Shown here piece by piece: positions 40,596-43,427 of a stretch of 64,000 nucleotides of DNA. The stretch comes from Eucommia ulmoides. Its lineage: Eukaryota > Streptophyta > Magnoliopsida > Garryales > Eucommiaceae. The position numbers and the translations under genes are program-made. The first letter of the stretch is position 1, and the number at the start of each line of letters is the position of its first letter. The stretch is from assembly GCA_016647705.1 (NCBI GenBank), contig CM028330.1, positions 32,390,649 through 32,454,648 on the forward strand, written 5' to 3'. Below the pieces are notes generated by a model, which was not told the DNA's origin, made no database searches, and was given only the letters and a program-made list of their open reading frames with translations.

Positions 40596-40825
40596 TGGAA
40601 GAAGTGGAGTAGAAGGAATATTTAGAAGAAAGGAAATGTTTTCAATATCAAAGCTTAATACAGCTGAGGAAGATTACACCACTATATATAGAGAAAGAAA
40701 TAAAAGTTTGTTACACAATAACAACCCAATCAACAAGAAACAAGAATAACAAACTAATTCTAGAAAGGGAAAAATAAGAAATATAAAATAAATAAAAATG
40801 TAGTTTCTCGAAGCTTAATTACTCA
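40596..40825 (-). repeat. 3' LTR of element G (230 bp)
   Basis: TGGAAGAAGTGGAG ... AATTACTCA. About 96% identical, with no gaps, to 42744-42973. It contains 'ccactatatatagag', which on the minus strand gives a TATA box. Confidence 0.9.
40679..40692 (-). promoter_or_regulatory. TATA box in the LTR of G
   Basis: The minus strand reads CTCTATATATAGTGG, unchanged in the other LTR. It is the probable core promoter of the element and would drive transcripts through the captured fragments. Confidence 0.5.
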
Positions 40826-40838
40826 ATATTCCCCCCTC
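40826..40838 (-). other. Polypurine tract of element G
   Basis: The minus strand reads GAGGGGGGAATAT just before LTR start TGAGTAATT. Confidence 0.8.
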
Positions 40839-41165
40839 AAACGGAAGGGCAATGAAACACTGATAGTTTGTGATGGAGACTGAGAAACCGGGAGGCGCAT
40901 TGTAGCGCATAACAAGCGGTGGTTGTTCTTCCCAACAAATGTTTGTCCGCAAGCACGAACCCCTAATCTTGTAGAAGTCCCTTAACTGCTACACTGTGGG
41001 TAATTGTTCTTCCCAACAAATGTTTTCCGCAGGCACGAACCCTAATTGGTCCCTCAATTACTACATCGTGGGTTATTGTTCTTAGTTCTCTCTAAGAGAG
41101 GAAGAGAGAGAGATGGAGAGAAGGTCGGAGCATGTTTCCTCCCATATATCAGGGAGAGCTCCATA
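40839..41165 (-). other. 3' internal region of element G with an 80-bp duplication
   Basis: Two diverged copies of 'gttcttcccaacaaatgttt.ccgcargcacgaaccc' at 40926 and 41008, each followed by 'taattg..' and 'actgctacac.gtgggt'. No reading frame recognised. Confidence 0.7.
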
Positions 41166-41300
41166 GATCAATCTGAGATTGACGACGTCAATGAACTGTT
41201 CTGGAGGTTGTTGGCCTGCATGTAGTCCAACACCATCTTGACGCCGAGGATTACAGCGGTAGTTCCCTTTGCGAGGGCTTGAACCGACTTTCGTTTCTTT
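41166..41300 (-). pseudogene. Coding-like stretch in element G, origin unknown
   Basis: More GC-rich than its surroundings. One minus-strand frame reads A-L-A-K-G-T-T-A-V-I-L-G-V-K-M-V-L-D-Y, and another frame is also open over the same bases, so I cannot say which, if either, was coding. It may be a further captured fragment or leftover gag-side sequence. Confidence 0.25.
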
Positions 41301-41640
41301 GTTATTCTGTTTCAGATATCAGGAAATAGAGATTCAGAGAAGAATTCGCCACTAAAATGAGGCGGGCTTGGAGAGGCATGAGAGAAATTGCACTTGAATT
41401 TGCAAAAACAACACAGAGATTTTTGGTAATTGGAAATTCTTGAATTTGCAAAACAGCGCAGGGATTTTGCAATGTAATTGTGCTTGCAGGGTGCAAAGTG
41501 CATTTTGTTGATCTTTTGCAGGCTGCACTTTAAACAATTTTCAAGTTGGCAGGGCGCAAAGTGTAAATTTGCACAAGTAGCCGGCACGCAATAGGCCTTA
41601 TACTGATTGAAGATAATGAATTGAAGGAGCAATGCTTTGG

Positions 41641-42043
41641 TCTCACATGATGAAACCACATACTTGGCAGATAAAGAATTTCCCCGGCCTTAACAGTGCA
41701 CTCGAATGGCTTAGGACCATTGAAATACAAAGGGAACTCAGCCATTGCTTTGTCTCTAGTCTCAGGTGAAGGGTATGGATTCACACTACACCATGGAACA
41801 AATCGCACTGGATCCTCGAGTTCTAATTTGAACTCTCCACTCTCGTGAGAATAGGAGTAATTTGCGGCTAGATAATCGCGAATGTACATGCGATGAACTC
41901 AGTGGGTGGAAGAAGCAGAAAATGCTTATCTCCCGTAACAACAGCATACGGATTATCGTAATGGTCTTTGTGAAACGATATTTCAGCAATTGATTTCCGA
42001 TCCATAGATTAACTGCTTCAGGAGAACAACCGAGCGCTTCCGA
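41641..42043 (-). pseudogene. Captured fragment of a JMJD7-like JmjC/cupin hydroxylase
   Basis: Family role: JMJD7-type proteins are Fe(II)/2-oxoglutarate-dependent lysyl hydroxylases with a cupin/JmjC fold. Reading from 42043 down, the fragment shows [17 protein letters not shown], then [13 protein letters not shown] (the iron-binding HxD of the HKD type), [11 protein letters not shown], then [27 protein letters not shown], and FPLYFNGPKPFECTVKAGE followed by ILYLPSMWFHHV (the distal iron-binding His region). It covers roughly the C-terminal two thirds of the domain, about 134 residues. Two single-base deletions shift the frame, at about 41985 (after GNQL) and about 41899 (after PPT). The text stops after HHVR at 41641, where a GTGAGA donor-like sequence lies. 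A start-like M-A-E-E at 42106 may be the original N-terminus joined by deletion. No intron is visible inside. Confidence 0.85.
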
Positions 42044-42146
42044 TGGAGCTTGTTCACCTCGGCGGAACCATCGGCGGCTACCGTAAACCCTGTTTCTTCA
42101 GCCATTCGGCTCGCTGCTCGTTCCAATCGGATTTTTTTTATTTTAT

Positions 42147-42333
42147 TTTTTGATGCCGAGAGTGTACGATTTTGACGGATCTCGCTTCTCGTCATCGACA
42201 TCGCTCCCGGAGTTCGGAGCTTCGGTGGATTTGTCTTTCTCGATGGCCTGTTTCTTGGCGGAAGTTTTGGCGGCCTTCGAGAGCCTCTGATGTTTCATTG
42301 GCCGGAATGAGTTTGACGAGCTTGTTGAAGAAC
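42147..42333 (-). pseudogene. Ser/Lys-rich coding-like fragment in element G
   Basis: The minus strand is open for about 62 codons: a Ser-rich start, then a basic segment containing KHQRLSKAAKTSAKKQ and an acidic stretch with G-S-D-V-D-D-E-K-R-D, closing SKSYTLGIKK-stop. Higher GC than the surrounding DNA and the charged low-complexity pattern of a nuclear/nucleolar plant protein suggest a third captured host-gene piece. I do not recognise the family. The overlapping plus-strand frame looks less protein-like. Confidence 0.4.
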
Positions 42334-42339
42334 AGTCTT

Positions 42340-42613
42340 ATTTTATCAATGAATAGGTATTTTTTTTTTTTTTAAATCTAAGAAGCAGAGGAAAGATGGA
42401 ACACGGTGAAAGTGGAGTCTGGTTCTATTGTTTCTATTTTTTGCCTTGGAACTGTCGGTCTTGCAGTGGCAGAAGGTGCGAAAGCAGCTGGTGCTTCACG
42501 TGTAATAGGCATAGATATCGACAACAAAAAGTATGAAACAGTAAAGAAAGTGCGATTTTATCAATGAACAGTTTTTTAGTTTTTTTTTTAGTTTTTTTTT
42601 TAAATCTAAGAAG
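42340..42613. repeat. Direct repeats flanking the ADH fragment
   Basis: ATTTTATCAATGAA + spacer + T-run + AAATCTAAGAAG occurs at 42340-42385 and again at 42555-42613, on each side of the ADH piece. The T-runs differ in length. Confidence 0.8.
42394..42560 (+). pseudogene. Captured fragment of an alcohol dehydrogenase (medium-chain, zinc type)
   Basis: The plus strand reads [12 protein letters not shown], then [20 protein letters not shown] and [15 protein letters not shown]. This is the nucleotide-binding Rossmann segment of plant class-P ADH/ADH-like proteins: the G-x-G-x-x-G turn is G(here C)LGTVG, and the Asp of GIDID would bind the adenosine ribose. The usual F-G-L has become F-C-L. Only about 50 of roughly 380 residues are present. 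It lies antisense to the element and to the JMJD7 fragment, between direct repeats. No catalytic zinc ligands are included, so it cannot be an enzyme. Confidence 0.85.
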
Positions 42614-42729
42614 GATATCTGAACATTTGAGTTTGAAAATGGCAAGGGAGGCGGCATGGAGGTGTAGCCACCGCCGCCTCCCTTGAAGAGGATTTCTAAT
42701 AGAGAGACTCAAGCAGAGGAAGGTGCTTA

Positions 42730-42741
42730 GCTCTGATACCA
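42730..42741 (-). other. Primer-binding site of element G
   Basis: TGGTATCAGAGC on the minus strand, two bases from the LTR. Exact match to the common plant Met-tRNA PBS. Confidence 0.85.
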
Positions 42742-42743
42742 AA

Positions 42744-42973
42744 TGGAAGAAGTGGAGTAGAAGGAATATTTAGAAGAACTGAAATGTTTTCAATATCAAA
42801 GCTTAATACAACTGAGGAGGATTACACCACTATATATAGAGAAAGAAAGGAAAGTTTGTTACACAATAACAACCCAATCAACAAGAAACAAGAATAACAA
42901 ACTAATTCTAGAAAGGGAAAAATAAGAAATATAAAATAAATGAAAATGTAGTTTCTAGAAGCTCAATTACTCA
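42744..42973 (-). repeat. 5' LTR of element G (230 bp)
   Basis: TGGAAGAAGTGGAG ... AATTACTCA, aligned without gaps to 40596-40825 with 9 differences. The last few bases before the duplicated AAATACAA (ATA) are ambiguous. Confidence 0.9.
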
Positions 42974-43427
42974 ATAAATACAAATATTAAAAGAGTTAGG
43001 AATTCTATCTAAAATCGAAAACCAAATTTCGAACCAAGATCGATATTGTATTAATTATTCTCATAACCTATATATATATACACTTGTCAAGTATATGAAC
43101 ATGAATATATACCTTAATGTTTAGTTAACACATTTCAAACTTTTTTATTTATTTATTTACACTAATTATCTCTCTGAAAATAAAAATAAAATATTAATTA
43201 TACTTCAAAACTTCTAAAATTAAATTTTAAATCACACAATAGTTTCAAAATTTTAAAAAGTCCACAGTAGTTTCAAAACTTTGAAAAGTGAATTTAAATT
43301 AACATTTAACCCCTAAAATTATCTAATATTTATTTACACCATAAATTTTCATAATACAAAATAACTAAAAAATATTAAACTTACATAAAATAATATTTTC
43401 AAAAATATAAATTTTCGAGGTATTACC

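Follow-up and report, generated by a model that had tools for sequence, protein, structure and literature searches.

How does a mobile element that encodes no retrotransposon protein come to carry pieces of several host genes? The question is raised by a short long-terminal-repeat (LTR) element in a 64,000 nt stretch of Eucommia ulmoides DNA (the window). The initial annotation placed this element at 40596–42975, gave it 230 bp LTRs, a primer binding site (PBS) and a polypurine tract (PPT), and read its interior as fragments of at least two host genes. The element is real, and the PBS and PPT adjoin the LTRs; its boundaries and LTR length required correction. A 5 bp target-site duplication (TSD) sets the span to 40594–42976 (2,383 bp, minus strand) and the LTR length to 235 bp:

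40589–40593, no strand: TSD AATAC, left copy
40594–40828, minus strand: 3' LTR (element sense), 235 bp, TATA-like CTATATATAG at 40682
40829–40838, minus strand: PPT GAGGGGGGAA, adjoining the 3' LTR (read from the sequence)
42730–42741, minus strand: PBS TGGTATCAGAGC, directly abutting the 5' LTR
42742–42976, minus strand: 5' LTR (element sense), 235 bp, TATA-like motif at 42830
42977–42981, no strand: TSD AATAC, right copy
46490–46513, plus strand: empty site GATTAAATACAAATATTAAAAGAG, in a local paralogous segment (46065–47020) of the same window

The TSD-set LTR ends read TATTGAG..TTCCATT; ends of the TG..CA type were considered and dropped. When the two flanks are joined with a single TSD copy, the resulting 24 nt are identical to those that span the empty site in the paralog. 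We take the PBS to be of the initiator Met tRNA type. As the initial annotation had it, there is no sign of a retrotransposon protein: no gag or pol domain was matched in Pfam by any of the 14 open frames of the element that were scanned. The two LTRs are identical at 226 of 235 sites (9 differences; K2P 0.039), which would date the insertion to ~1.5 My at 1.3e-8 substitutions per site and year, the rate for rice, or to ~2.8–5 My at slower alternative rates of 4–7e-9. Other repeats lie in the window: one at 576–2755, 6241–8368, 9815–11113 and 30233–32343 (~72–91% identical between copies), and a large direct repeat at 27246–29980 and 55325–57571 (79–90% identity).

Pieces of six host genes occupy ~920 of the 1,913 interior bp (~48%; the sum includes one 23 bp SWIB stretch placed by eye in the studied copy). 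The gene capture that was first proposed is thus real and its extent was undercounted: in addition to JMJD7 and alcohol dehydrogenase (ADH), the further pieces suspected at the time come from four more genes (RRP14/SURF6, GT34, PRP38A and SWIB). The interior features are as follows:

41201–41246, minus strand: SWIB/MDM2 gene piece, sense; 89% over 46 bp to parent L042 (contig C8), its end being the exact parental exon end
41623–41647, plus strand: PRP38A piece, part 1 (KEQCFGLT), antisense; 25/25 to L053
41640–41647, minus strand: 8 nt microhomology TGTGAGAC, a capture junction, common to the PRP38A piece and JMJD7 exon 3
41640–42045, minus strand: JMJD7/JMJ32 piece, sense; runs from the end of exon 1 through the whole of exon 2 to nt 29 of exon 3; two frameshifts
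42043–42045, minus strand: 3 nt microhomology CAT, the other capture junction
42043–42090, plus strand: PRP38A piece, part 2 (MELVHLGGTIGGYRKP), antisense; 92% over 48 bp to L053
42091–42197, minus strand: GT34 xylosyltransferase piece, sense; 79% over 107 bp to parent L052
42189–42336, minus strand: RRP14/SURF6 piece, sense, with internal deletions; 83–95% over three stretches to L051
42340–42385, minus strand: element segment, first of the two copies that flank the ADH piece
42397–42541, plus strand: class III ADH piece, antisense to the element; a parental 86 bp GT-AG intron is missing
42555–42613, minus strand: element segment, second copy flanking the ADH piece (duplication)

The JMJD7 piece lies in element sense, as first read, and matches Cupin_8 (8.5e-13), human JMJD7 (5nfn, 2.7e-11) and, at 86% over 86 residues, a Nyssa protein. 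Its parent gene (L009, C4:54016500-54023000) is matched with identities of 94%, 98% and 29/29. Comparison with this parent, a check that the initial annotation had proposed, demonstrates that both parental introns (~120 and 2,010 bp) are missing, with exon joins at 41845/41844 and 41669/41668. The same piece was sought across the host genome (947 Mb, 391 contigs) by a DNA search that skips very common words, such that copy counts are lower bounds. All three candidates were scored: the piece itself was found only in the studied element and the parent gene, the other candidate being a 47 bp flank match in the family locus L023. No free-standing processed JMJD7 copies were found in this search.

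The sequence as it stood before JMJD7 arrived is kept in L010 and L023. In L010, which has no JMJD7, the order is GCTCCAT, 24 nt, TGTGAGACCAAAGC; in the studied copy, JMJD7 exons stand between CAT and TGTGAGAC, and the corresponding positions of the JMJD7 gene have the same two words. JMJD7 replaced 24 nt inside an older PRP38A piece. Relative to the parent, the piece differs at 17 of 406 sites (10 of these changes alter a residue) and by two one-base indels. Set against the 9 of 235 differences between the LTRs, this gives P values of 0.10–0.50 for different levels of constraint on the parent; with few changes the test is a weak one, and capture at the time of insertion is not rejected. Most simply, JMJD7 may have been captured in the same reverse-transcription event that made the studied copy.

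The ADH piece, rightly read at first as antisense, is of class III (4l0q, 7.5e-21; 3uko, 7.7e-21), and its parent lies at C14:57108500-57114500 (L039). The missing intron is 86 bp long (GTAAGT..TTGTAG), and a 7 nt match hints at a second one; at least one parental intron is therefore gone here too. Since the missing intron is GT-AG in ADH sense, what was copied was sense mRNA or cDNA made from it, and not an antisense transcript. The genome search (seven of seven candidates scored) places the piece in six element copies and the parent, with the same ends in all six. L016 and L018 go back to a single insertion, so the six copies represent five insertions, and the ADH-bearing copies occupy separate sites with their own TSDs. 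The common ends point to an ADH piece that was captured and then transposed. As for JMJD7, no free-standing processed copies were found in the host genome search. The element segment duplicated around ADH is single in five aligned ADH-less copies (L010, L011, L024, L026 and L028), and beside the piece lies an 11 nt filler.

The initial annotation had expected capture to precede transposition, and had regarded the absence of the pieces from other copies as evidence against it. For ADH the expectation holds, while for JMJD7, on the evidence of the genome search, it does not: that piece was found in no other copy. JMJD7 is nonetheless no unrelated later insertion, consisting as it does of spliced mRNA sequence inside PRP38A with microhomology at both ends.

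The four remaining genes were found with the help of two better-preserved copies, L010 and L028. The identity of the PRP38A piece rests on L010 (PDB 4rz9, 2.5e-7), in which the GT34 piece is also longer (90% over 299 bp; parent L052, PF05637, 5.4e-66). The RRP14/SURF6 parent, L051, matches PF15459 (4.3e-21) and PF04935 (2.8e-18), and copy L028 matches PF15459 (1.3e-7). The SWIB parent, L042, matches PF02201 (3.3e-11); the SWIB piece itself does not match SWIB in Pfam and is identified by DNA identity to this parent, with ~20 bp more of the same exon at ~41254–41276 (by eye in the studied copy, by BLAST in others). PDB searches with the SWIB and RRP14 pieces gave no match. The parents lie on contigs C12 (RRP14/SURF6), C3 (GT34), C17 (PRP38A) and C8 (SWIB). 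RRP14 and GT34 are joined at a common GCCGGAAAAT and an internal RRP14 deletion lies at a common AACAGACCA, while the GT34–PRP38A join has no microhomology. Because each of these four pieces comes from within a single exon, they are not by themselves evidence of mRNA origin.

To place the pieces in order, 27 loci were fetched (L010–L036) and 18 elements were compared with the studied copy; the comparison excluded L025, L029–L036 and, at L023, the second element, all of them incomplete or too divergent. The RRP14 block is at least partly present in 14 of the 18 (all except L013, L014, L017 and L027) and the SWIB stretch in 16 (all except L027 and L028), which makes both pieces old or widely shared. 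A nested order is apparent from these comparisons: RRP14, GT34, PRP38A and SWIB are widespread in the family, ADH is present in a subset, and JMJD7 lies inside PRP38A in the studied copy only. Three sister copies (L013, L014 and L017) carry pieces of RPL34 and ARID instead (in L017, PF01199 at 1.6e-19 and PF01388 at 1.6e-6, respectively), with parents at C9:5427162-5427531 and C17:36232472-36232866; in all three, the RPL34 piece has lost at least one parental intron. The family total is eight known host genes, with six pieces in sense and two in antisense.

The family is mobile, as evidenced by (i) several insertions with different TSDs, and (ii) the empty paralogous site. An exact 5 bp TSD is found in 13 of 16 copies, representing 11 separate insertions; across 16 copies, LTR divergence ranges from 0.004 to 0.069 (K2P) and length from 1,775 to 2,922 bp. 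The LTRs of L017 differ at 1 of 235 sites, and the family has therefore moved recently. The product is mobile and codes for nothing obvious. Searches for gag and pol in the interiors of more diverged relatives found none (L027, three frames; L030 and L031, six frames each), and no Pfam hit above a curated cutoff came from the additional segments of L012 (six frames) or L028 (three frames). One of these relatives, L030 (C8:25050600-25057200), is a 4.5 kb element with ~3.1 kb of interior without identified content, in which six frames compared with Pfam gave no match at E 0.01.

Several copies have unusual structures. L016, L018 and L022 have their flanks and the TSD CTGCC in common and were accordingly counted as one insertion; the same insertion lies on three segmental duplicates, at C14:31509900-31513700 (L022), 31583000-31587200 (L018) and 31633300-31637600 (L016). 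We take the lack of ADH in L022 as a secondary loss. L023 (C2:29523900-29530400) consists of two tandem family elements with different interiors and an apparently common middle LTR (LTR-interior-LTR-interior-LTR), and L015 (C9:40140000-40145100) contains the interior segment 1411–2024 of the element twice.

Family copies have probably also recombined, judging by three features of their alignment. Firstly, in a sliding window the nearest relative shifts along the studied copy: L012 at 1–100, L020 at 251–400, the ADH copies at 401–600, and L010 or L017 at 1401–1550. Secondly, the interior block 1411–1600 is missing from all five other ADH copies. Thirdly, the ADH piece of the studied copy is the most distant, differing from the other five at 10–14 of 155 sites, while those five differ by 4–12 among themselves. 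The direct ADH-bearing ancestor of the studied copy is not among the copies seen. Recombination between copies is to be expected when two RNAs are co-packaged. We dropped the idea that simple recombination, with its crossover at JMJD7, produced the studied copy: a mosaic is seen, but the JMJD7 joins need one template only.

How, then, was the interior assembled? Introns are gone from both intron-spanning pieces, and therefore reverse transcriptase probably jumped onto cell mRNAs. We consider it highly probable that this TRIM-like, non-autonomous LTR retrotransposon had its interior built stepwise from host mRNAs by reverse-transcriptase template switching. Element RNA and host mRNA would be co-packaged in particles from another element. 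The enzyme, while synthesizing minus-strand DNA, would move from the element RNA to JMJD7 mRNA at TGTGAGAC, copy backwards from exon 3 to exon 1, and return at CAT, with 24 nt skipped. The antisense, spliced ADH piece could arise if the enzyme switched to an mRNA during plus-strand synthesis and the growing strand later re-annealed further upstream; the duplication seen beside ADH would be the trace of that step. Sense mRNA copied into the plus strand of the element would thus give antisense ADH, and copied into the minus strand, sense JMJD7. The plus-strand step is inferred from orientation and duplication; later inversion, or insertion of ready-made cDNA, would look the same. Two observations count against template switching: the lack of microhomology at the GT34–PRP38A join and the 11 nt filler beside ADH.

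The joins bear on a second, unlikely explanation: capture at the DNA level, in which processed cDNA pieces made elsewhere were ligated in through microhomology-associated end joining or break repair. Microhomology is what copy-choice switching would leave, and end joining could leave some too; break repair also produces short microhomologies, an 11 nt filler and a duplication such as that near ADH, and it easily explains the antisense orientation. It is disfavoured by the genome search, which turned up no free-standing processed JMJD7 or ADH, and by the JMJD7 joins, which are separated by 24 nt of a single template and flank a sense piece, the pattern that a there-and-back switch should leave. 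Repeated capture in one small family is, moreover, more natural during the family's own replication. Very improbable is read-through transduction, in which the element transcript takes in adjacent host genes, as has been suggested for 3' transductions. Though a published route for LTR elements in the available text of a review (PMC13317346), it sits badly with six parents on six different large contigs (C3, C4, C8, C12, C14 and C17) and with internal exon fragments that lie in both orientations and include one nested within another. A chance composite of unrelated insertions into an old LTR element, which JMJD7's presence in one copy might suggest, is barely credible given that no second LTR set was found inside the element, that the ADH ends are identical in five separate insertions, and that JMJD7 replaced element sequence at microhomologies.

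Template switching onto host mRNAs remains our preferred reading, and the structure of the element places it among known systems. Paired LTRs, a 5 bp TSD, and a PBS and PPT adjoining the LTRs identify it as an LTR retrotransposon, and gene capture by a non-autonomous LTR element, as first proposed, stands. TRIMs are ~1 kb or less, with LTRs of ~100–250 bp and a tRNA-Met PBS. The 235 bp LTRs and the PBS, presumably of the tRNA-Met type, agree with this; at 2,383 bp the element exceeds TRIM size, and is hence TRIM-like rather than a TRIM. Pack-MULEs, Pack-TYPE elements and Helitrons are DNA transposons and non-autonomous carriers of several gene fragments; Pack-MULEs and Helitrons are marked by terminal inverted repeats, or by Helitron ends and an AT target. 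The studied element resembles them in being non-autonomous and carrying several gene fragments, but differs in that introns are lost and in that its ends are direct LTRs with a 5 bp TSD.

The phenomenon itself is known, having been reported in three sources, cited here from their available text. Gao 2016 (PMC4717578) describes 30 gene-bearing TRIMs in seven subfamilies, with exon-only pieces, both LTRs and 5 bp TSDs; most have several copies and so transposed after capture. Among them, soybean GmaRetroS15 is likewise a small LTR element with several host-gene pieces (exon fragments of three genes, without introns). The studied copy, in contrast, holds six genes in 2.38 kb (eight in the family), where the TRIMs of that paper measure 1,172–1,449 bp, and it has two antisense pieces, orientation not being given in that text, and one capture that can be set beside its pre-capture state. 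The 2026 review (PMC13317346), which names Pack-MULEs, Pack-TYPE elements and Helitrons, describes transduction and abnormal template switching. It also presents maize Bs1, an LTR element that contains segments from three host genes and whose chimeric gene is transcribed and translated; the studied element is similar in its several host-gene segments and differs in that no intact reading frame was seen across its pieces. Of the features of Bs1-like capture, pieces without introns are found in JMJD7, ADH and the RPL34 of the sister copies, and transposition after capture in ADH and not in JMJD7. Finally, Jiang and Ramachandran 2013 (PMC3726574) report 672 and 1,343 LTR-captured genes in rice and sorghum, which shows that capture by LTR elements is widespread; the available text makes no mention of gene fragments, intron, antisense or template switch. 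No LTR element with six host genes was found by title and abstract in the open-access literature.

LTR capture of host mRNA is thus already known, and the studied element is a richer case. What it adds is the number of genes, an antisense spliced piece (its most informative feature), and a view before and after capture. In our judgement, the mechanism of mRNA capture by LTR elements has mostly been deduced from joins that are old and blurred; in the present case, a capture seen in a single copy can be aligned nucleotide by nucleotide with an uncaptured relative and the parent, with switch points at microhomologies of 8 nt and 3 nt. Spliced pieces in both orientations allow minus- and plus-strand switching to be separated in further copies. 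More tentatively, and with somewhat less than even confidence, we suggest that the family may be a serial collector of host genes: its antisense pieces would record plus-strand switching onto spliced mRNA, a second mode beside minus-strand switching, and capture would be continuing, with new copies able to gain or swap pieces.
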